Of a DNA stretch of 55,179 nt, positions 44,256-55,027 are shown in pieces. The DNA is from Porphyromonadaceae bacterium (GTDB taxonomy: Bacteria; Bacteroidota; Bacteroidia; Bacteroidales; Porphyromonadaceae). The position numbers and the translations under genes are program-made. The stretch's first letter is position 1. Every line of letters begins with the position of its first letter. The stretch is taken from assembly GCA_030528555.1 (NCBI GenBank), contig JAUMYQ010000003.1, positions 108,717 to 163,895 on the forward strand. The letters are read 5' to 3'. Below the pieces are notes generated by a model that worked only from the letters and a program-made list of their open reading frames with translations, ran no database searches and had not been told where the DNA came from.

Positions 44256-45854
44256 ATGGCTAAGAAAAAGAAGATAGAAGAGGCGGCTATGCCCAGCCTC
44301 GAAACCATACTATTCAACTGCCGAGAGTATCTCCGCAGTAATGCTTCGCTCAACGATAAGCGAGACCTACTTCTGACGCTCGTCTTCCTACGCTTCATTG
44401 GCGAGAAGTTTGAGGACGAACAGCAGGCACTCCGCCAGCAATGCCACGATAATGGCATGACAGACGAGGCGGAGATACAAGACTTCCTCGACCAGCCTGG
44501 TATGTATAGCGGTGTAGCCTTCGTACCACCTGTGGCTCGCTGGAGCGAACTGACCCTTCTCCCCCCAACGAAGCTCAATGCCGCCCTCGACGATGCCTTG
44601 ATGGCTCTCGAGGATAGTGGCGATACCTTCAAAGGCTGTGTGCGTCTGGGGCTTTTCACGAGTATCCACCTCGAGGCGAATGTCATCAAGAAGGTAATGG
44701 ACGAGGTGAGCAAGATTTCGCACAAGACCTTCGGCACGGAGCGAGACCTCATCGGGCGAGTGTACGAATACTTCCTCAAGAGCTTTGCCATCAATGCCAC
44801 CAAGGAGGAGGGCGAGTTCTATACGCCCCATGATATCGTGGAGCTGATTGCCGCCTTTATCGAGCCTTTCGATGGCACGCTCTACGACCCTTGTTGTGGC
44901 TCGGGCGGTATGTTTGTGCAGTGTGCCAAGTATGTCGAGGCGAAGCAGGGCGACATCATGCAGGTCAATGTCTATGGGCAGGAGGCAGACCCTGCCACTT
45001 ACCGCTTGGCAAAGATGAACCTCGCCATGCGTGGCATCTCGCACCACCTCGGCGAACGCAATGCCTCCACCTTCTCCAATGATATGCACCGAGGCTTGAC
45101 CTTCGACTACATCATGGCGAACCCACCCTTCAACCTCAAGAAATGGTATGACCCTTCGCTGAGCCACGATGCTCGCTGGGCAGACTATGGGCTACCGCCC
45201 GAGGGCAATGCCAACTATGCTTGGATACTGCACATGCTCTCCAAACTCCGTCCCCAGCGTGGTGTGGCAGGCTTCCTCTTGGCGAATGGGGCTTTGGGCG
45301 ACGGCGATGCGGTGGCTATTCGTCAAAAACTCATCGAGGCGGACAAGATAGAGGCGATTATCGTCCTACCCCGAGAACTCTTCTACACGACCGACATCTC
45401 CGTTACGCTGTGGATACTCAACCAAAACAAGCGTGGCGGACGCTGGCACGACCGCAAGCTCCGCTCTCGTGTGGGCGAAGTGCTGTTTATGGACTTGCGT
45501 AGCTGGACGGACAATCCTGTCAAGGGGGAGCAGAAGAAGAAAGTCCTCCTCACAGCAGAGCAAACCCAGCGAGCCGTCGGCATCTATCATGCTTGGCAGG
45601 CGGAGGGGACGGACGGTGCGAACTATGCCGAACCTGAGCTTTATCGCTCTGTCAGCATTGAGGAATTGAGGGCGAATGCCTTCTCCCTTGTCCCCAGTCG
45701 CTACATCGAGTTTGTAGACCGTGATAGCTCGATTAAGTATGACGAGGTCTTGCAGGGTACTACCCAAAGGGTGCAAGACCTACTACGTCGCCAACAAGAC
45801 AATAGCGAAGCCCTACGCAACGCCCTCAAACACCTTGGTTATGACTGCGAATAA
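44256..45854 (+). CDS. hsdM: Type I restriction-modification DNA methyltransferase subunit
   Basis: A 532-residue N6-adenine methyltransferase, the modification subunit of a type I system. The N-terminal HsdM helical domain covers about 12-150 (ETILFNCREYLRSNASLNDKRD), the catalytic domain about 165-430. The SAM site DPCCGSGG is at 211-218 and the catalytic NPPF at 289-292. It would work with HsdS (target recognition) and, with HsdR, form the restriction complex. Its 3' end overlaps hsdS by 14 bases. Codon use and G/C content look higher than in the downstream CBASS genes. Confidence 0.96.
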   Translation: MAKKKKIEEAAMPSLETILFNCREYLRSNASLNDKRDLLLTLVFLRFIGEKFEDEQQALRQQCHDNGMTDEAEIQDFLDQPGMYSGVAFVPPVARWSELTLLPPTKLNAALDDALMALEDSGDTFKGCVRLGLFTSIHLEANVIKKVMDEVSKISHKTFGTERDLIGRVYEYFLKSFAINATKEEGEFYTPHDIVELIAAFIEPFDGTLYDPCCGSGGMFVQCAKYVEAKQGDIMQVNVYGQEADPATYRLAKMNLAMRGISHHLGERNASTFSNDMHRGLTFDYIMANPPFNLKKWYDPSLSHDARWADYGLPPEGNANYAWILHMLSKLRPQRGVAGFLLANGALGDGDAVAIRQKLIEADKIEAIIVLPRELFYTTDISVTLWILNQNKRGGRWHDRKLRSRVGEVLFMDLRSWTDNPVKGEQKKKVLLTAEQTQRAVGIYHAWQAEGTDGANYAEPELYRSVSIEELRANAFSLVPSRYIEFVDRDSSIKYDEVLQGTTQRVQDLLRRQQDNSEALRNALKHLGYDCE

Positions 45855-46941
45855 GACGAAGTGGGTACGCCTCGGGGATTATATCGAGCAAAGGCGAGAA
45901 AAGAATACATACTCGGACTTGCCGATTAGAGGTGTCGCTCGGGAGGGCTTTATTCCTCCTAAGCAGTTAGATGCTGACACCTCGATATACAATGTATTCT
46001 ACAAAAATGACTTTGTATTTAACCCAGCGAGAATGGAACTAAACTCTATCGCTCTAAATACAGAGTATGATAAGGCTATTTGCTCCTCGTTGTATGAGAT
46101 ATTTTATGTCAGCAACCCAGAAAAGTTACTACCAGAGTACCTAAATCTGTACCTTAAAAGGGACGAATTTGCGAGATATTGTAGCTATGATGCTATTGGT
46201 TCTGCTCGTAATTACTTTCGAGTTGCCAATATGCAGGACATCCGCATCCCCCTACCGAGCATGGAGGTGCAGCGAGATTTGGTGGTGACTTACGAGGGCT
46301 TGAAGCGTCTTGACGAAGACAACGAAGCCTTGATTGCTCCGCTGACCGAGGCTTGCGGAGCCTTTATCGTAAACTGCAAAAGCAAATACCCCTCCGCCCC
46401 CCTCGGAGACTACATCGAGGGGGTGGACGAACGCAACAGCGAGGGGAAATACTTGGTAGAGGATGTGAGAGGGATAAGCATAGAAAAGAAGTTTATTGAC
46501 ACCAAAGCCAATATGGAGGGGGTAGGGCTAAACCCGTACAAAGTTGTTTGCCCTCAAACCTTCGCCTTTGTATCTGTTACCTCACGCAATGGGGGTAAAA
46601 TATCTCTTGCCATCAATAACACGGAGCAAACCTATATAGTATCATCTTCGTACGATGTTTTTAGGTGTAAAGAGGAGCTTCTTCCCGAGTATCTCTATAT
46701 GCTATTAAGTCGGGAGGACTTTGACCGCTATGCTCGCTTTAATTCGTGGGGCAGTGCCAGAGAAACATTCGATTGGACGGAACTTTGCCGAGTCCAAATC
46801 CCCCTGCCCCCGATAGAGATACAGCAGTCTATTGTACACCTTTACCAGTGTATCGAGGAGGCGAAGTGTATAGCCAGCGAAGCCCGCGAGCAGCTCCGTG
46901 AGCTTTGCCCAGCCCTTATCCAGCGAGCCATTCACAGCTAA
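45841..46941 (+). CDS. hsdS: Type I restriction-modification specificity subunit
   Basis: A 366-residue protein with two similar halves, each a target-recognition domain followed by a conserved helix. Half 1 begins TKWVRLGDYIEQRREKN and contains GSARNYFRVANMQDIRIPLP. Half 2 begins SAPLGDYIEGVDERN and contains GSARETFDWTELCRVQIPLP. The ATG at 45841 was chosen since it opens this repeat structure and overlaps the end of hsdM by 14 bases, as expected for translational coupling. The recognised DNA sequence cannot be read from the protein. Only one hsdS is present, without a visible recombinase or second partial hsdS for shuffling. Confidence 0.93.
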   Translation: MTANKTKWVRLGDYIEQRREKNTYSDLPIRGVAREGFIPPKQLDADTSIYNVFYKNDFVFNPARMELNSIALNTEYDKAICSSLYEIFYVSNPEKLLPEYLNLYLKRDEFARYCSYDAIGSARNYFRVANMQDIRIPLPSMEVQRDLVVTYEGLKRLDEDNEALIAPLTEACGAFIVNCKSKYPSAPLGDYIEGVDERNSEGKYLVEDVRGISIEKKFIDTKANMEGVGLNPYKVVCPQTFAFVSVTSRNGGKISLAINNTEQTYIVSSSYDVFRCKEELLPEYLYMLLSREDFDRYARFNSWGSARETFDWTELCRVQIPLPPIEIQQSIVHLYQCIEEAKCIASEAREQLRELCPALIQRAIHS

Positions 46942-46959
46942 GAGATATACAGACGAAGT

Positions 46960-47835
46960 ATGAGCAAGATTTCGATACGATTTTTCAACGACCGAGAGGT
47001 GCGAGCCGTTTGGGACGAGGCGGAGTCTAAATGGTGGTTCTCTGTGTTGGACATCATAGGCGTGCTGAATGACCAAGACGATTACAACAAAAATAGAAAC
47101 TACTGGAAGTATCTCAAGACGAAGCTCAAACGAGAGGGTAACGAAGTGGTTAGTGCCACTAACCAGTTGCGCCTGCTTGCTCCCGATGGCAAAAAGCGTC
47201 TGACAGATACGCTCGATGACAAAGGCGTGGTTGCATTGGCTCAGAGCTTCCCCAACGCACGAGCCATGCGCTTCGTGGAGTGGTTTGTAGGCGGAGAAGA
47301 AACGGTTGACGGGCGTAGTCGATCCAAGGCGTATGCCCTCTTTGAGAGCGAGCTACTGGAGGGGATTGAGGTTGGTACGGTGCGGGGGTTGCAACAGATA
47401 CATGCCTACCTCTTTGGCGGACTTTACGACTTCGCAGGGCAAATCCGCCAAGTCAATATCGCCAAGGGTGGCTTTCAGTTTGCGATGGCTCAGTATCTAC
47501 CTACCACCCTTAGCCATATCGAGCAAATGCCAGAGCAATCTTGGGAACAGATAGTGGACAAGTATGTAGAGATGAATATCGCCCACCCCTTCAGAGAAGG
47601 CAATGGGCGTGCCACACGTATTTGGCTCGACCTGATGCTCAAGAAGCAACTTGGGCTGTGTGTAGACTGGAGTCGAGTGGATAAGTATGCCTATCTCGAA
47701 GCCATGAGAGCCAGTGTGGCAGATGCCTCTGGCTTGAAACGCCTGCTACACCCAGCTATGACCGATAAAATCAATGATAGAGAAACCTTTATGAAGGGGA
47801 TTGACTACTCGTATTACTACGAGCAGGAAGACTGA
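46960..47835 (+). CDS. Bro-N domain fused to a class III-type Fic protein
   Basis: A 291-residue fusion. Residues ~5-110 resemble a Bro-N domain (IRFFNDREVRAVWDEAESKW, WFSVLDIIGVL), a probable DNA-binding module seen in phage antirepressors. Residues ~125-265 form a Fic core with IHAYLFGGLYDFAGQIR and the AMP-transferase motif HPFREGNGR (209-217), all key residues present. The C-terminus has SYYYEQ (284-289), matching the C-terminal inhibitory [ST]xxxE[GN] motif of class III Fic enzymes except for Gln at the last position. A similar text SELLEG occurs at 130-135. It lies 18 bases after hsdS and 27 before hsdR, so it belongs to the operon. Target and purpose are unknown. Confidence 0.88.
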   Translation: MSKISIRFFNDREVRAVWDEAESKWWFSVLDIIGVLNDQDDYNKNRNYWKYLKTKLKREGNEVVSATNQLRLLAPDGKKRLTDTLDDKGVVALAQSFPNARAMRFVEWFVGGEETVDGRSRSKAYALFESELLEGIEVGTVRGLQQIHAYLFGGLYDFAGQIRQVNIAKGGFQFAMAQYLPTTLSHIEQMPEQSWEQIVDKYVEMNIAHPFREGNGRATRIWLDLMLKKQLGLCVDWSRVDKYAYLEAMRASVADASGLKRLLHPAMTDKINDRETFMKGIDYSYYYEQED

Positions 47836-47862
47836 ATACCCCCTCAATAAATCACGAAGCCT

Positions 47863-50800
47863 ATGAAGTTTTACGAAAGCGAGTACGAACAGGCTCTCAT
47901 CGACCTCCTCTGTGAGGTAGGCTGGGACTATACACACGGCAGTAAGCTACATCGCACGAATAGGGATATGCTCCTCACGGACGACCTCCGTAGCTTCCTC
48001 GAGGAGCAACACCTCGAGCTGGAGAGCGAAGATGTAGAGAGCATCATCGACCACCTCCGCCACACTGGAGGGCAGACGCACTTTGCCCAGCTACGCTCCA
48101 CCTATCGCCTCCTTATAGAGGGCTACCGATATACGAGGCAGAGCGATGGACAGGCTTTCGACATCGCTTACATAGACTTCGATGAGGTGGGGCGTAACCG
48201 CTTCCGAGTAGTCAACCAGTTTGAGGTGGGCTATGGGCAGGGCAGTGATATTCGCATCCCCGATGTGCTCCTCTTTGTCAATGGCATACCGCTCTGCATC
48301 ATGGAGCTGAAAAATCCTACCGATGCCACGGCGACGATAGCCGATGCCTACGAGCAAATCCACACCCGCTACAAGAGAGACATTCCTCACCTGCTGAGGT
48401 ATTGCTCCCTATCCTGCATCAGCGATGCCACACGCAACAACACCAAGCTCGGCACGACCTACACGCCCTACGAGCATTACTATGCTTGGAAGAAGGTTCA
48501 CAACGAAGACCCAGCCGCCCAAAGTGGCATCGACCAAGTGCGTACCCTTGTGAACGGTGTCTATGCCCCCGAGCGTTTCTTAGAAATTCTGCGAGACTAT
48601 GTCTATTTCCCCGATGCCAAGAGCGATAGAGAGGAAGAGGTGGTGTGTCGCTATCCGCAATTCTTCGCCACACGTATGCTCAGAGACAATGTCCTCAGAG
48701 CTTATGCCGAGGGCGACCACCGTGGAGGAACTTACTTCGGGGCTACGGGCTGTGGCAAGACCTATACGATGATGTTTCTGGCACGGCAACTCTCGCTCCG
48801 CTCGCCCGAATTGGGGTCGCCTACCATCGTGATGATTGTAGACCGTGAGGATTTGCAGTCGCAGGCTGGCAAGCTCTTTCTCCGCTCCGAAGGGTTTCTC
48901 TCGCTCGGTGCGACCAAGGTCATCGATAGCCGTGCCGACCTCAAAACAGAGATGAGTCTACGCACTTCGGGAGGCTTTTTCATCTGTACGATACAGAAGT
49001 TTTGCGAGGAGACGGGGCTGCTCAACGAGCGATGCAACATTGTTTGCTTCTCGGACGAAGCCCACCGCACGCAAGTGAGGCTCAATACCCAGCTCAAAGT
49101 AAAAGACAAGACACCCGAGGGCAAAGAGGGAAAAGGCGATGCGCTGGGAGCTTTCGTTACTAAGCCCTATGCCGAGCTACTGCGTACAGCTTTCCCCAAT
49201 GCCACCTTCGTGGGCTTTACGGGTACGCCTATTGATGATACAATTCAGGTCTTCGGACAGATTGTCGATAGCTATACGATGCAGCAGGCTGTGGCAGACG
49301 GCATCACTCGAGATATTAAGTATATCCCACGCATAGCAAAGGTTACTCTCGAAGCCGAAAAAGTGCAGCAGATAGATGCCTACTACCAGCAGTGTGGCGA
49401 GGAGGGAGCTACCGAAGCCGATATTGCGACAAGTAAGAAGGCTATGAGTGCGATGGAGGTTATCCTGGGCGATGACGAGCGTTTGGAACGCTTAGCAGCT
49501 GACATTGTAGCACACTACACTGAGGCTTGCGATAATCGGGCTGATGTGGTGCAGAAAGCGATGATTGTGTGTAGCAAACGGCACATCGCCTACCGCCTCC
49601 TCAAGAAGTTTGAGCAGCTTCGCCCCGACTGGTTCGAGGAGCGTAAGTCGCCCGACGACAGCCGTCTGACCAAAGAGACGCTACAACGGCTCAGCCCTAT
49701 GCCTACGATTGCTATGGTAGCAACACGCAGTGCCAACGACCCTGCCGATATGTATCATTATCTTGGCGACAAGAAGCGTATCAAAGAGCTGGACGAGGCG
49801 TTCAAAGCCCCCGAGAGCAACTTCCGTGTAGTCATCGTGGTAGATATGTGGATTATGGGCTTCGATGTGCCTTGTCTCACCTATCTCTACAACGACAAAC
49901 CGCTGCAAAAGCAAACTTTGATACAGACCATCAGCCGTGTGAATCGCAACTACCCAGGCAAAGACTTTGGTTATGTGATTGACTACATCGGTATTCACAA
50001 AAACATGATGGAGGCGATGCGTCGCTTCGGGGGCGAGGATTTCGGACCCAGCGAGGACGATGTGGCTCAAGCCCACGAAGCCTTACGCATCGAGTTGGAG
50101 ATTATCCAGCAGGTCTTTGCAGGCTTTGACCTCTCTCCCTTTACGGACAAAGAGGCGACACCCTTGGCACGCCTCGACTGCCTCTCTCGGGCTGCGGAAT
50201 ATATCATTACGATGAGCCAGATGCTCCATGTAGATGGCGGTAAGGGTGTGCCTCAAAAGGTAGATGCCAAGACTTTCTTCCTTGCCCATGTGAAGCGACT
50301 TAGGGCAGCTTACGATATTTGCCAGCCCTCGAATGTTCTCTCGCACGACGAACTCACCCTCTCGCAGTGCTACATGGCTGTGGCATCGTATGTGCGTAAG
50401 ACCTCGGGCGAGAAGCACGATGTAGAGAGCATGAACAAGGCGGTCGAACGCATGGTATCGGAGGCACTGCGTTGCAACTCGGTCGTAAGCATCTTGGACA
50501 CCGATGTAGAAGAGCAAATCTTTAGCCCTGAGTTTACCGAGCAGCTCAAAGACATTAAGCTCCCTGCCACAAGGCTCGAGCTCCTCATCAAGATGCTGCG
50601 CAAGACCATCCGAGAGTACAAAAACACCAATAAAGTCGCTGCCGAGCGGTACGAAGAACTGCTCCGTAAGACATTGGAGGCGTATCACGAGCGTAGGGCG
50701 GCACTCTCTGCAGCAGAAGCCTCTGCCACACAGAGCGAAGCCGTTACCGCCATCATTGACGAAGCCACAAGGCAGGCGATGGATCTGCTCCGTCAGCTGG

Positions 50801-51153
50801 GCGAGGACAAAGAGAGCTTCCGTGGTCTGGGTTTGACCTTCGAGGAGAAAGCCTTCTACGACATCTTGATACACCTGAGGGATAAATACAACTTCGTCTA
50901 TGGTGAGGATAAACGTGTGGGCTCTCTCATTATCAATGATAAGTGTAAGGCTTTGGCTAAGAAGATTAAGGAACTTATCGATGTGCAGTCGTCCTTTACC
51001 GACTGGCTCAACAATCAGAAAATACGTGCCGACCTGAACCAAAAGATATTCTTCTGCCTTCGTGCTGGTGGCTATCCCCCTCAATACAACAAAGAGGTCT
51101 TTGACCAAGTGATGGAGCAGGTCGAGCATTTCAAGACCTACGCAGGAGATTAG
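47863..51153 (+). CDS. hsdR: Type I restriction endonuclease subunit
   Basis: A 1,096-residue motor-nuclease that translocates unmodified DNA and cuts it. The PD-(D/E)XK nuclease site is at 133-150 (RIPDVLLFVNG with Asp134, then MELKN with Glu148 and Lys150). The SF2 motor has Walker A GATGCGKT (293-300) and a DEAH box (398-401, FSDEAHRTQ), followed by FVGFTGTPI and QTISRVNRNYPGKDFGYVIDY. The C-terminal helical region after about 770 probably binds the methylase core. It appears full length. It closes the hsdM-hsdS-fic-hsdR operon, 46 bases before the CD-NTase gene. Confidence 0.96.
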   Translation: MKFYESEYEQALIDLLCEVGWDYTHGSKLHRTNRDMLLTDDLRSFLEEQHLELESEDVESIIDHLRHTGGQTHFAQLRSTYRLLIEGYRYTRQSDGQAFDIAYIDFDEVGRNRFRVVNQFEVGYGQGSDIRIPDVLLFVNGIPLCIMELKNPTDATATIADAYEQIHTRYKRDIPHLLRYCSLSCISDATRNNTKLGTTYTPYEHYYAWKKVHNEDPAAQSGIDQVRTLVNGVYAPERFLEILRDYVYFPDAKSDREEEVVCRYPQFFATRMLRDNVLRAYAEGDHRGGTYFGATGCGKTYTMMFLARQLSLRSPELGSPTIVMIVDREDLQSQAGKLFLRSEGFLSLGATKVIDSRADLKTEMSLRTSGGFFICTIQKFCEETGLLNERCNIVCFSDEAHRTQVRLNTQLKVKDKTPEGKEGKGDALGAFVTKPYAELLRTAFPNATFVGFTGTPIDDTIQVFGQIVDSYTMQQAVADGITRDIKYIPRIAKVTLEAEKVQQIDAYYQQCGEEGATEADIATSKKAMSAMEVILGDDERLERLAADIVAHYTEACDNRADVVQKAMIVCSKRHIAYRLLKKFEQLRPDWFEERKSPDDSRLTKETLQRLSPMPTIAMVATRSANDPADMYHYLGDKKRIKELDEAFKAPESNFRVVIVVDMWIMGFDVPCLTYLYNDKPLQKQTLIQTISRVNRNYPGKDFGYVIDYIGIHKNMMEAMRRFGGEDFGPSEDDVAQAHEALRIELEIIQQVFAGFDLSPFTDKEATPLARLDCLSRAAEYIITMSQMLHVDGGKGVPQKVDAKTFFLAHVKRLRAAYDICQPSNVLSHDELTLSQCYMAVASYVRKTSGEKHDVESMNKAVERMVSEALRCNSVVSILDTDVEEQIFSPEFTEQLKDIKLPATRLELLIKMLRKTIREYKNTNKVAAERYEELLRKTLEAYHERRAALSAAEASATQSEAVTAIIDEATRQAMDLLRQLGEDKESFRGLGLTFEEKAFYDILIHLRDKYNFVYGEDKRVGSLIINDKCKALAKKIKELIDVQSSFTDWLNNQKIRADLNQKIFFCLRAGGYPPQYNKEVFDQVMEQVEHFKTYAGD

Positions 51154-51199
51154 AAAAGATATAGCAGAAGTTAAAAATAAACAATAAAATAACCTCTTT

Positions 51200-52246
51200 A
51201 TGGATTACAAAAGTAAAATCACGGCTCTTTCAGATAGATATAACCCCGAGAGAACCCAAGTAGTAGAAACTTGGCAGTTCAGCAATAGTGACCTACGCTT
51301 AACAGACAACGACGTTATTCGGTATGTCAAAAGAGCAATGTGTGCAGTAGATGAAGAGTATACCAGAAAGACAAAACAAGCTGGAGAAAGTGCTAAGCGT
51401 CATCTGAGCAATGCACTAACCGATGTCTCATTTGAGTATCAAGGATCTATTATGACCGATACGCATATTAGAGGGGCTAGTGATATTGACCTTTTGGTAC
51501 TTTGTGACAAATTCCACAGCACTGAAATAACTAAAGTTAGAAATGAGATAAGCAGTCCTTCTCGATACTACACACTAGAAGAACGACACCTACTGGAGAG
51601 ATATAATCAGACCTTTTCTGCATATCAAGGGAATAGCTTCAGTGATTTGGCTAATCTTAGGGCTGATATTGAAAGAATAATGAGACAAACCTACGATGAG
51701 TGTGACACATCACACGCTAAAGCTGTAAAAATAAGGAATAAGCATCTACATAGGGATGTCGATATTGTTACTGCATCTTGGTTTCAATCCTTGGATTATG
51801 TTTTACATGATATGCGCAAAGAGAGGCTGGGGATCAAGATATTCAATAAAAATAAGGGGTATGCAGAAGGCCCAGATTATCCATTCTTGAGTATCTCAAG
51901 AATAAACTTGAGAAGTGCTGAAACTTTTGGCCGTTTGAAAAGAATGATCCGTTTTCTCAAAAATGTGAGAACAGACTCTAGTCTAAACATTCCTTTAAGT
52001 AGTTTCGATATCAATGCGATATGCTATTCAATTCCTATACGAGATTATGCAAATTGTGACTACAAGCAATTGGTTCATGTTTTGTGGCACACAATGTTTT
52101 ATCTTTGGTATGATAAGAAAGAAGGTCAGCTAAAATCTGTTATTGGAGATGAGTATGTATTCCAAGGAAAGCCTGAAAAAGTAGAAGCATTAAAGATGTT
52201 AGAGAATGAGGTGTATAAGATCAAAACTGATTTAGAGAAAGCATGA
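51200..52246 (+). CDS. CD-NTase-like nucleotidyltransferase (CBASS nucleotide synthase)
   Basis: A 348-residue protein with the active site of the cGAS/DncV-like nucleotidyltransferases: GS at 82-83 in EYQGSIMTDTHI, the metal-binding pair Asp95/Asp97 in ASDIDLLVL, and a third acid in HRDVDIV (Asp186/Asp188). In CBASS such enzymes make a cyclic dinucleotide when phage infects. The gene directly downstream encodes a TIR-STING receptor; STING-linked enzymes of this type are known to favour 3',3'-cyclic di-GMP, so that product is inferred. It is AT rich compared with hsdR. The 3' end overlaps the next start (ATGA). It could also be another DNA-polymerase-beta-like transferase, but the pairing argues for CBASS. 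Confidence 0.85.
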   Translation: MDYKSKITALSDRYNPERTQVVETWQFSNSDLRLTDNDVIRYVKRAMCAVDEEYTRKTKQAGESAKRHLSNALTDVSFEYQGSIMTDTHIRGASDIDLLVLCDKFHSTEITKVRNEISSPSRYYTLEERHLLERYNQTFSAYQGNSFSDLANLRADIERIMRQTYDECDTSHAKAVKIRNKHLHRDVDIVTASWFQSLDYVLHDMRKERLGIKIFNKNKGYAEGPDYPFLSISRINLRSAETFGRLKRMIRFLKNVRTDSSLNIPLSSFDINAICYSIPIRDYANCDYKQLVHVLWHTMFYLWYDKKEGQLKSVIGDEYVFQGKPEKVEALKMLENEVYKIKTDLEKA

Positions 52247-53184
52247 AACCAAGGATATTTATAGGCTCTTCTTCGGAAGCATTAAACGTAGCCCAACGTA
52301 TAAAAGATTTTTTCTCCCCAGATTATGAGTGCTTTTTATGGACGGATGATGTGTTCAAAAACAATGAATCTTTCTTAGAAACGCTGGTCAAATCTGCGAG
52401 TTTATTTGATTTCGGGTTTATGGTTTTCTCCGCTGACGATAAGGGAACCATACGAAATGAGCTTTTTGAAACACCACGAGATAATATTTTATTTGAATAT
52501 GGTCTATTCCTTGGCAGGGTTGGTTTAGACCGAGCCTTTATCATAGCAGAGGAAACGGTAAAAATCCCAACCGACATGCTAGGAATTACTCACACTCGAT
52601 ATATAGTAAAGACTGGCGAGCAAGGGAAAAAAGAAGCAACAGATTCTCTAGAAAAGGGACTTGAGAAATTAAAAAAGCAGATTGATGAGAATCTCAATTT
52701 AGGTCACCTAGGGCTTCTCCCCTCAACTGTAATTGCGATTTCTTACTTTGAGGGATTTGTTAAACTCGCAGCAGAGTGGATTATGAATAGTATCCCTAAC
52801 ATAGAGTTAGAAGGCAAGAGTTATAAGAAATGCATTCTTTACATCAAAATACCAGAAACTCTTGATGCAGATATAAAGAAAAGCGCGAAACTGTTCTATA
52901 AAAAACAAGGACTTCATGAAACTGAAATAACAACAGGTCATCGGAATTATCCTATACATTTTGAAGCAAAGGGTAATAGTAATGATACATTAGAAATCTA
53001 TGATATGCCTACAATACTTAGCGGTATCGACAAAGCTATCGACATGTATTTTAAGGTAGGGCATATTGGGAAAACTAATCAACAGCAATTGGCTGAGGAT
53101 AATGAGATGAATAATTTCAAACGGGTTCTTCAGCTGTTGATTAACGAGGATGCATTTTGTCGTGAATGCGTGAAGATTATTTGA
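52243..53184 (+). CDS. TIR-STING effector of a CBASS system
   Basis: A 313-residue protein in two parts. Residues 1-~150 form a TIR-like NAD-hydrolase domain (MKPRIFIGSSSEALNVAQRI, WTDDVF, PRDNILFEYGLFLGR), with Glu85 the candidate catalytic residue. Residues ~155-313 resemble bacterial STING (GLLPSTVIAISYFEGFVK, KKCILYIKIPETLD, TLEIYDMPTIL). By family knowledge, cyclic-dinucleotide binding to the STING part causes filament assembly, and the TIR part then destroys NAD+ and stops growth. Start ATG overlaps the upstream stop by 4 bases. No type II/III CBASS ancillary genes are seen, so the system is of the minimal two-gene form. The call is made from motif and layout, not from database search. 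Confidence 0.82.
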   Translation: MKPRIFIGSSSEALNVAQRIKDFFSPDYECFLWTDDVFKNNESFLETLVKSASLFDFGFMVFSADDKGTIRNELFETPRDNILFEYGLFLGRVGLDRAFIIAEETVKIPTDMLGITHTRYIVKTGEQGKKEATDSLEKGLEKLKKQIDENLNLGHLGLLPSTVIAISYFEGFVKLAAEWIMNSIPNIELEGKSYKKCILYIKIPETLDADIKKSAKLFYKKQGLHETEITTGHRNYPIHFEAKGNSNDTLEIYDMPTILSGIDKAIDMYFKVGHIGKTNQQQLAEDNEMNNFKRVLQLLINEDAFCRECVKII

Positions 53185-53216
53185 AATGTTATCCTTTTTT
53201 TCGATAATCAATGGTC

Positions 53217-53250
53217 AACTCCACGGCTTGCAAAAGCAAGCTGTGGAGTT
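53217..53250. terminator. Terminator between the TIR-STING and mobilization genes
   Basis: A 15-base-pair stem (one mismatch/G-U pair) with an AAAA loop lies between convergent genes and ends 2 bases before the mobilization gene stop codon. It probably stops transcription from both sides. Confidence 0.75.
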
Positions 53251-53251
53251 C

Positions 53252-53674
53252 TTATTTCCTCTCTCGATTGTCAAATGCCATCGTCAGCTGTATCGCCTGC
53301 ACCTGTAGCTTGATGATTGCAGCTGAGTACATTTCGAGCTGGCGTATCATTCTCTGGGCTGTTTTAACCGAGTGGTAGCTATTGAGCGTTTTGACGGCTT
53401 CGTTGTAATTCACACCGATTACGCTCAATTTGGTGATGATGCTGCCCAGCTCTCGGAGATACGGCTCTGCGGATTTATCGTGTGTGATGACCTTAAAGGG
53501 CTGGTTCAATAGTCGTGCTCTGACGTAATGGCTCTTGGTCTTTGCTCCCGACTTTCGGTATAGTTCGATGAGCTTTTGCTGGTCTTCGGGATTAGGTATC
53601 CTGATGTGCCACCTGTCCCATCGTGGGCAGGTGGCACACCTGCCGTCAGGCTTGTCTGTACTCTTTCTTTTCAT
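53252..53674 (-). CDS. MobA/MobC-like mobilization (relaxosome) protein
   Basis: A 140-residue protein resembling the small mobilization proteins of Bacteroides conjugative and mobilizable elements (called MobA in CTnDOT-like elements, MobC in others). Features: a ribbon-helix-helix-like stretch (IRIPNPEDQQKLIELYRKSG, TKSHYVRARLL) and the family text VIGVNYNEAVKTLNSYHS, with a C-terminal helix. In such elements this gene precedes a relaxase and helps it at oriT. Here no relaxase gene follows downstream: the reading ends at a terminator facing the TIR-STING gene. It may therefore be a remnant or act with a relaxase in trans. Confidence 0.8.
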   Translation of the reverse strand: MKRKSTDKPDGRCATCPRWDRWHIRIPNPEDQQKLIELYRKSGAKTKSHYVRARLLNQPFKVITHDKSAEPYLRELGSIITKLSVIGVNYNEAVKTLNSYHSVKTAQRMIRQLEMYSAAIIKLQVQAIQLTMAFDNRERK

Positions 53675-53874: not shown

Positions 53875-54363
53875 TCAGAGTTTTCTCCACACTTCTACAT
53901 CCTCTTTGTACTGCTCGAGATGCTCTCTGAGTACTCGCTCCACATAACCCGAGATTGTCGCTCCTCGTTCGCCTATTCTGCGAACGACCAAGTCTAAGCT
54001 CCTGAGCGTTTCTTCGGAGACATAGACCGCCTTGCGGTGGCTGATGCGTTGGGGCTGGAGGTACTTCTCTTGGAATTGGGCGAGTCGCTCCCTTTTTTGA
54101 GCTAAGCCTTGCTTGACGGCAGGCTCTTCAACTTTGGGGGGTGTCGGGGCTTTACTCGGCTGGGGTTGGTGCTGGGGCTTAGGCTTCGATGGTGGATTTT
54201 GAGGTAGTGGAGCAAACTTCTTGCTGAAGTTGGGCATACCAATACTTCCGTCGTCTTCCTCATCATAGTCAAAGGCGAGTTTAGACCTATTCGGGTTAAT
54301 CCCATAGTTCCCAAGCCGTTTCAAGCCCTCGTCGAGAATTTTATCTTTCTCTTCTTGTATCAT
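53875..54363 (-). CDS. DUF3408-like mobile-element protein
   Basis: A 162-residue protein resembling the DUF3408 family found in Bacteroidota conjugative and mobilizable elements. The N-terminus is acidic, a Pro/Gln/Lys-rich linker (about 54-83) is probably disordered, and the C-terminal part (about 105-150, VYVSEETLRSLDLVVRRIG) fits a ribbon-helix-helix fold. Start ATG 54363 lies 1 base after the upstream gene's stop, so translational coupling is likely. Exact function unknown; partition/transfer accessory roles have been suggested for the family. Confidence 0.75.
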   Translation of the reverse strand: MIQEEKDKILDEGLKRLGNYGINPNRSKLAFDYDEEDDGSIGMPNFSKKFAPLPQNPPSKPKPQHQPQPSKAPTPPKVEEPAVKQGLAQKRERLAQFQEKYLQPQRISHRKAVYVSEETLRSLDLVVRRIGERGATISGYVERVLREHLEQYKEDVEVWRKL

Positions 54364-54364
54364 A

Positions 54365-54670
54365 CTATCTCTTTGTTAGAATGGGGTTATAATGCCTTTC
54401 GAGCATCGCTTGGATGTCGCTCTGTTTATAGAGTATCTTACCTCCTATCTTGTAATAGGCTAATGTGCCGTTGCTACGGTACTCTTGGAGCGTTCGTGTG
54501 CTGATTTTGAGTAGTTCGCAGACCTCTTCTCCAGTAAGGAATACCTCTCCTCCTAACATCGGGCGAGCCGAGGCACAATAACGCTCCAGCTTGGCTAATA
54601 CACCCTCCATCATTTGAGTAAACATCAGTATTTGAGGGTTTTCGCCTGTAATGATTTCATTCTCTGCCAT
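54365..54670 (-). CDS. HTH_17 excisionase-like protein
   Basis: A 101-residue MerR-like helix-turn-helix protein (HTH_17 type, about 43-92: FLTGEEVCELLKISTRTLQE, YYKIGGKILYKQSDI). Such proteins in Bacteroides mobile elements serve as excision factors or regulators. It is followed by the DUF3408-like gene with a single-base gap. The preceding gene encodes a second protein of the same type. Confidence 0.8.
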   Translation of the reverse strand: MAENEIITGENPQILMFTQMMEGVLAKLERYCASARPMLGGEVFLTGEEVCELLKISTRTLQEYRSNGTLAYYKIGGKILYKQSDIQAMLERHYNPILTKR

Positions 54671-54677
54671 AGTGGGT

Positions 54678-54947
54678 TCATTCAGTTTTTGAGTTCAATG
54701 CTTGTGTGATGTCGCTCTCTTTGTAGTAACACTTGTGTCCGACCATTGAAAAGGGAATTTTGCCTGTATCACGGAGCATCTGCAAGGTTCGCTTGCTGAT
54801 GCTCAGCCTACGGCAGACGGCTTCGTTGTCGAGCCACTTCTCTGTTTGGGGTGGATTGCCAATGAGTTGCTCCACTCGGTGAATAAAGTCGGCAAAGGAG
54901 GAACGGAGCATCTCCCACGCTTTGCCTTCTACGATGATAATTTTCAT
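54678..54947 (-). CDS. HTH_17 excisionase-like protein (second copy type)
   Basis: An 89-residue protein with the same fold type as its neighbour (about 38-86: EAVCRRLSISKRTLQMLRD, CYYKESDI). ATG 54947 was chosen because the longer frame opens with TTG at 54992. It is the first gene visible of the minus-strand module; an integrase might lie beyond the right edge. Two adjacent HTH_17 proteins of related but different sequence are common at the start of Bacteroides mobile elements. Confidence 0.8.
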   Translation of the reverse strand: MKIIIVEGKAWEMLRSSFADFIHRVEQLIGNPPQTEKWLDNEAVCRRLSISKRTLQMLRDTGKIPFSMVGHKCYYKESDITQALNSKTE

Positions 54948-55027
54948 TGCTTCGGTTGGTTTTAGGTTGTGTTCTTGATTAAGTGCAAGCAAGGGCTATC
55001 GCTCTCACCGGCTTTGTTATTTAATGG

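Follow-up and report, generated by a model that had tools for sequence, protein, structure and literature searches.

One of the described systems closest to the locus analysed here is ElCdnE/ElSTING of Epilithonimonas lactis (PDB 9lmq), for which it was reported that ElCdnE makes c-di-GMP only, that c-di-GMP is the only cyclic dinucleotide among those tested that activates NAD+ cleavage by ElSTING in vitro, and that E86 is the catalytic residue of the effector, in which W34 is also named (PMC12421889). PcSTING of Prevotella corporis is called a class I STING, and PDB 7ebd is its complex with c-di-GMP, in which the ligand is contacted by F171, R233, Y235, H238 and D252 (PMC8748872). SfSTING is a further TIR-STING NADase, whose NADase residues are given as S10, R78, N80, the catalytic E84 and its mate D110 (PMC9402430). 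Type I restriction-modification operons that contain embedded defence genes were described as well, i.e., with DarTG2 (PMC12255303) and with TgvAB (PMC11411939), and both papers cite further work on such embedding.

The window, by which we mean the whole analysed stretch of 55,179 nucleotides, comes from a Porphyromonadaceae bacterium and ends where its contig, C20, ends. It very probably carries a complete CdnE/TIR-STING CBASS that would act through c-di-GMP, filament assembly and NAD+ loss, and that forms swappable cargo downstream of hsdR in a type I operon that is itself mobile. Gene content and gene order are those of ElCdnE/ElSTING, whose effector is matched over the full length (9.5e-88), with about 47% identity in the effector and 35% in the cyclase. 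The 9lmq chain and the Epilithonimonas lactis effector at locus L065 have identical sequences. At L065, genes of hsdM, hsdS and hsdR type lie directly upstream, as in the window; however, the type I hsd family is a different one, since hsdR of L065 carries EcoEI_R_C. PcSTING matches over the STING domain (residues 157-313 of the window effector against 7ebd, 1.9e-78) with its ligand contacts kept, but the PDB entry holds the STING domain only and comes from a different host, whereas the window pair is known from sequence. SfSTING has the equivalent catalytic Glu and mate Asp (PMC9402430). DarTG2 and TgvAB resemble the window in that an hsd operon holds a second defence module, internally or at its edge, yet they are placed inside the operon, while the module of the window is a CBASS behind hsdR.

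The first gene of the pair, cdnE (51200..52246, + strand), encodes a CD-NTase of 348 aa and predicted 3'3'-c-di-GMP synthase, and the second, cap12 (52243..53184, + strand), a predicted TIR-STING NADase effector of 313 aa; both frames are open and co-directional, and the 4-base overlap noticed in the sequence-only reading is correct to the coordinate. The family and PDB matches of both proteins are far above chance level. CdnE matches the PADLOC oligonucleotide cyclase PDLC00784 at 7e-137, PDB 6wt9 at 2e-77 and PDB 6wt8, titled 'STING-associated CdnE c-di-GMP synthase', at 1.5e-50; a Pfam scan gave nucleotidyltransferase matches below threshold only. The proposed GS...DxD...acid arrangement is present as G82-S83, D95-x-D97 and the third acid D188, of which G82, S83, D95 and D97 do not vary in the CdnE alignment, while D188 is conserved in at least 90% (n=29, window included). 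The ancillary E1, E2 and HORMA genes are absent beside the pair, whose neighbours are hsdR upstream and mobC, on the opposite strand, downstream. Judged from its sequence, the pair is a complete and intact CdnE/TIR-STING CBASS, a known kind of anti-phage system, so that its first description as CBASS-like, a CD-NTase with a TIR-STING partner, is borne out by homology and residue conservation. We take its subtype label to be I-D.

The effector was expected to join a TIR to a STING part, and it does: residues 4-120 of Cap12 match TIR (PF10137, 1.8e-28) and residues 160-297 prok_STING (PF20300, 3.5e-32), both above the curated cut-offs, and the beginning of the STING domain is overlapped by the stretch GLLPSTVIAISYFEGFVK, in which STING resemblance had been seen. 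The protein scores 515 bits on the Cap12 equivalog NF050172 of NCBIfam (cut-off 450). A more distant match than 9lmq and 7ebd is PDB 7un8 (6.5e-52), which we take to be SfSTING. The TIR NADase residues of Cap12 are S10, W33, R79, N81, E85 and D111, and they match the residues named for SfSTING and ElSTING (PMC9402430; PMC12421889); S10 is kept in 68 of the 69 rows of the Cap12 alignment and each of the others in all 69 (window included). Glu85, put forward earlier as a catalytic candidate, aligns with E86 of the 9lmq chain, the catalytic residue of ElSTING according to PMC12421889.

The c-di-GMP contact positions of PcSTING correspond to F172, R234, Y236, H239 and D254 of Cap12, and the residues are kept. 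Within the family, R234 is found in 63/69 rows and D254 in 69/69 (window included), Y stands at position 236 in 34/69 and H at position 239 in 18/69. Since the latter two positions vary, R234 and D254 carry most of the weight in the call on ligand specificity; their equivalents in PcSTING were reported to set guanine specificity (PMC8748872). The same variation at Y236 and H239 might suggest a different signal nucleotide for the pair, such as 3'3'-cGAMP. We consider this very unlikely, because both guanine-specificity positions are kept in Cap12, PcSTING binds c-di-GMP in 7ebd, 6wt8 bears the title of a c-di-GMP synthase, and ElCdnE makes and ElSTING answers c-di-GMP (PMC12421889). A GGDEF match is lacking in the own genome, an absence that is not firm alone because this genome is 85.6% complete, and in all 38 family genomes, own included, with matches in 8 of 14 control genomes; c-di-GMP is therefore plausibly free to act as an alarm. 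Among the 393 genomes of the order sample GGDEF occurs in 17, STING in 3 and both in none, counts too small for a test of exclusion.

From homology, conserved residues and the ElCdnE/ElSTING data together, the chain to be expected runs from synthesis of c-di-GMP through assembly of filaments to the loss of NAD+; in this chain the ligand, filament and NADase steps are taken by analogy from the studied relatives. On phage infection CdnE would make 3'3'-c-di-GMP, which would bind the STING domain of Cap12 dimers; the ligand-bound dimers would then stack into filaments, thus bringing together the TIR domains, which, once assembled, would hydrolyse NAD+, and the loss of NAD+ would lead to growth arrest or death of the infected cell before phage release. 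The route from c-di-GMP to NAD+ loss, as given in the sequence-only reading, is thus well supported as a prediction by homology and residue conservation.

The suggestion that the pair could be a new lineage did not hold. Maximum-likelihood trees were built from 69 rows for Cap12 and 55 rows for CdnE, the latter being the phylogeny that had been proposed as a check. In these trees the window proteins and those of a second copy in the same genome (described below) fall inside supported, mainly Bacteroidales sets of 11 rows (Cap12 tree) and 10 rows (CdnE tree). Both sets hold Xylanibacter muris, Parabacteroides faecalis, Muribaculaceae and other Bacteroidales, with Prevotella brunnea in the Cap12 set, and each contains two rows from MAGs labelled Bacillota that have the appearance of binning errors. 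The nearest other relatives are 76% (Cap12) and 62% (CdnE) identical. Judged by these trees, the window and second-copy proteins are normal members that form a distinct twig within the Bacteroidales group; the new-lineage reading was dropped, both trees and the curated equivalog match standing against it.

The system is sparsely distributed: STING was found in 1/38 family genomes, 3/393 genomes of the order sample and 16/395 of the phylum sample. No relatives were found in viral contigs (searched with the Cap12 alignment) or in phage records (searched with Cap12), and the plasmid records, queried with CdnE only, gave 50 records, all below 60% identity. A scan of genome contigs, from which near genomes may have been left out, found none with CdnE alone. 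Identical Cap12 proteins occur across families at L038, L039 and L040 (Parabacteroides faecalis, Prevotella brunnea), which points to recent transfer; in L033, L035 and L045, MAGs labelled Bacillota carry Cap12 identical or nearly identical to Bacteroidales ones, probably through binning errors rather than transfer. At L054, L058, L059, L070, L093, L096 and L101 the partner of TIR-STING is a DncV-like CD-NTase and not CdnE. In L058 and L093, the two of these loci whose CD-NTase and E2 genes were profile-scanned, an E2 gene is present; in L054, L059, L070, L096 and L101 the cyclase was identified by tblastn only. The STING of L093, L096 and L101 has G aligned to the guanine-recognition position R234, which hints at another ligand.

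The sequence-only reading was silent on the type I restriction-modification operon upstream of the pair, on the mobilisation genes and on the second copy, the last of which lies outside the window. The operon runs in the order hsdM-hsdS-fic-hsdR-cdnE-cap12, all co-directional on the + strand: hsdM methylase (44256..45854; PF02384, 2e-86), the specificity subunit hsdS (45721..46941; PF01420, 1e-11), a Fic/Bro-N protein (46960..47835; PF02661, 6.9e-13; PF02498, 5.1e-5, just under the cut-off) and the restriction subunit hsdR (47863..51153), beyond which cdnE starts after 46 bp. The name hsdR was given on the strength of gene position and of homology to ORFs that carry HSDR_N/type I R domains, e.g., an ORF of L086 with 26% identity over 943 aa, the Pfam domains being those of L086. 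A Fic-family protein also stands at the corresponding place, between hsdS and hsdR, in L043. Just after cap12 there is an intrinsic-terminator-like hairpin of 15 pairs (53217..53250, + strand), followed on the opposite strand by a MobC-like mobilisation protein (53252..53674; PF19514, 1.3e-45) and by a DUF3408 protein (PF11888, 6.9e-24) and two HTH_17, excisionase-like proteins (PF12728, 1.7e-14 and 8.8e-9) of a mobile element (53875..54992).

In 50900-53400 the terminator scan gave 3 sites against 1.4 expected; on the + strand the hairpin at 53217-53250 is the only one, with no terminator-like site in 50900-53216. From this layout, cdnE and cap12 are probably transcribed by read-through from the hsd operon, with termination at the hairpin. 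The promoter scan used a sigma-70 consensus, which is ill-suited to Bacteroidota, and for this reason cdnE may have a promoter of its own.

The same genome holds a second hsdM-hsdS-fic-hsdR-cdnE-cap12 cassette on contig C34 (L003:1470-10421), full length and with both CBASS frames open, near two tyrosine integrases. A hairpin is found at the same place after its cap12, where, by eye, the substitutions preserve all 15 pairs, G-T included. With gaps scored as differences, the two copies are 88.5% identical in hsdM, 58.2% in hsdS, 92.1% in fic, 87.9% in hsdR, 78.3% in the gap between hsdR and cdnE, 96.7% in cdnE, 97.3% in cap12, 83.6% in the gap after cap12 and 85.1% in mobC. The low value for hsdS likely means a different DNA specificity, and the block of high identity coincides with the borders of the CBASS. 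Inside this block 824 bases in a row are identical (51639-52462), a length that was reached neither in 5000 permutations of the differing sites over 46960-53184 (longest identical tract 163) nor in 20000 permutations within the CBASS (longest 421). Because independence of sites is assumed in this procedure, it serves as a guide and not as an exact test. These patterns are read as exchange of the CBASS module followed by later conversion between the copies. A mixed-strain assembly is a caveat on the two copies, although the contamination reported for the genome is 0.29% and the neighbours outside the shared cassette look different.

Two copies in one genome, together with STING in a single one of the 38 family genomes, indicate a patchy and probably recent arrival, and could also be expected of a decaying remnant carried along by a mobile element. 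Decay is highly improbable, given that both copies are full length with every checked active-site residue present, and that synonymous codon changes between them outnumber non-synonymous ones (20 to 3 in Cap12, 22 to 10 in CdnE).

Full-length relatives of hsdR at 75-88% were found in six family genomes (a 76% fragment occurs also in G021), and the region behind hsdR was compared in all six, together with three genomes that are more distant. SIR2-HerA follows hsdR in G003, an Avs2-type gene in G007 (L175), and in G018 (L176) an ORF comparable in length and start. G037 and G016 have opposite-strand genes unlike any gene of the window, and G036 about 960 bp without an ORF above 70 aa, then two ORFs and ordinary-looking genes. 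Among the more distant genomes, SIR2-HerA is again present behind hsdR in G149 (hsdR 51%; the two SIR2-HerA loci are L174 and L179), and ORFs are present in G302 (hsdR 73%) and G118 (hsdR 54%). Since the cargo differs behind related hsdR genes, the position looks like a turnover site for defence modules. Our tentative reading, to which we give somewhat less than even chances, is that the 3' end of the hsd operon may be a slot for defence modules exchanged by recombination (CBASS, SIR2-HerA, Avs2), that the CBASS units of the two hsd copies, whose specificities probably differ, may have been homogenised with each other, and that one cell may thereby hold two specificities with the same abortive-infection backup. 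The defence system is already known at atomic resolution, and the pair itself extends it by a single genome. More can be learned from the setting: related hsdR ends with different defence cargo form a natural series, in which one may ask whether restriction-modification with an abortive backup protects better than either alone, and how defence modules get exchanged.

The position of cdnE, 46 bp behind hsdR and co-directional with it, also allows the CBASS to be viewed as a guard of restriction-modification, set off by disturbance of HsdR/HsdM, whether from an anti-restriction protein of a phage or from DNA damage that the nuclease causes. A role of this kind has been proposed for PrrC in its type Ic operon. 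In favour of a guard, genes like hsdM or hsdR stand in the co-directional run at 9/43 TIR-STING loci with enough flank, among them L065, the Epilithonimonas lactis system that has been studied. The counterpart for other CD-NTases is 9/36 loci, or 9/43 against 6/36 without the control loci L182, L189 and L200, whose matches are weak (best E 1e-17 to 4e-51, limit 1e-10) and may not be type I. Anywhere in the sampled flank the counts are 14/43 and 9/36, a weak lean to STING. Counted over all loci in the co-directional run, the linkage is no higher for TIR-STING than for other CD-NTases, other cargo types occupy the same slot behind related hsdR, and L032 and L038, which are among the nearest relatives (Cap12 76% and 74% identical), gave no BLAST match to hsdM, hsdS or hsdR at 1e-5 within 10 kb on each side. 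The guard role is therefore unlikely, and cargo carried behind hsdR is the reading that we retain. Embedding in type I operons as a feature specific to STING was likewise rejected, the PF18144 CD-NTase control showing it at about an equal rate; the association is accordingly one of CBASS, or of defence islands, in general. Across the sampled loci, mostly from Bacteroidota, about one-sixth to one-fourth of the CD-NTase loci have type I hsd-like genes in the co-directional run.

These counts were obtained as follows. For the TIR-STING set 104 loci were found and 80 kept, of which 12 were left out: L036, which seems to duplicate L035; L081 and L095, in which the match is interrupted or incomplete; and L099, L100, L104-L106 and L108-L111, in which it covers the TIR part or little beyond. 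L096 was lost to the length filter, so that 67 loci, 60 of them distinct, remained besides the window. At least 4 kb on both sides was available for 43 loci, among which both members of near pairs such as L043/L084 or L054/L070 were counted, and the window was excluded for its short right flank. The control comprised 40 loci of PF18144 CD-NTases from 54 match rows, 36 of them with flank, and these were taken as CD-NTase matches, whether part of a complete CBASS or not. The hsd profiles derive from the window and from the STING set, and any bias would favour the latter.

The placement of the module relative to the hsd genes varies. A TIR-STING CBASS lies behind hsdR in L043, L084 and L065 and ahead of hsdM in L073, CdnE-Cap12 separates hsdM from hsdS in the type I operon of L086 (7413-16834), and TIR-STING with a DncV-like CD-NTase lies between hsdS and hsdR in L054, L070, L093 and L096. 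CBASS inside type I operons was not found in the literature searched, which was mainly openly accessible, and we do not claim that it is unreported; the word 'restriction' is absent from the main text of the ElCdnE/ElSTING report (PMC12421889). Locus L081, dropped from the count, has hsd-like genes upstream. Directly 3' of cap12 in L043 there is a RhuM-family gene (L043:10987-12018), and an ORF of like size stands there in L084.
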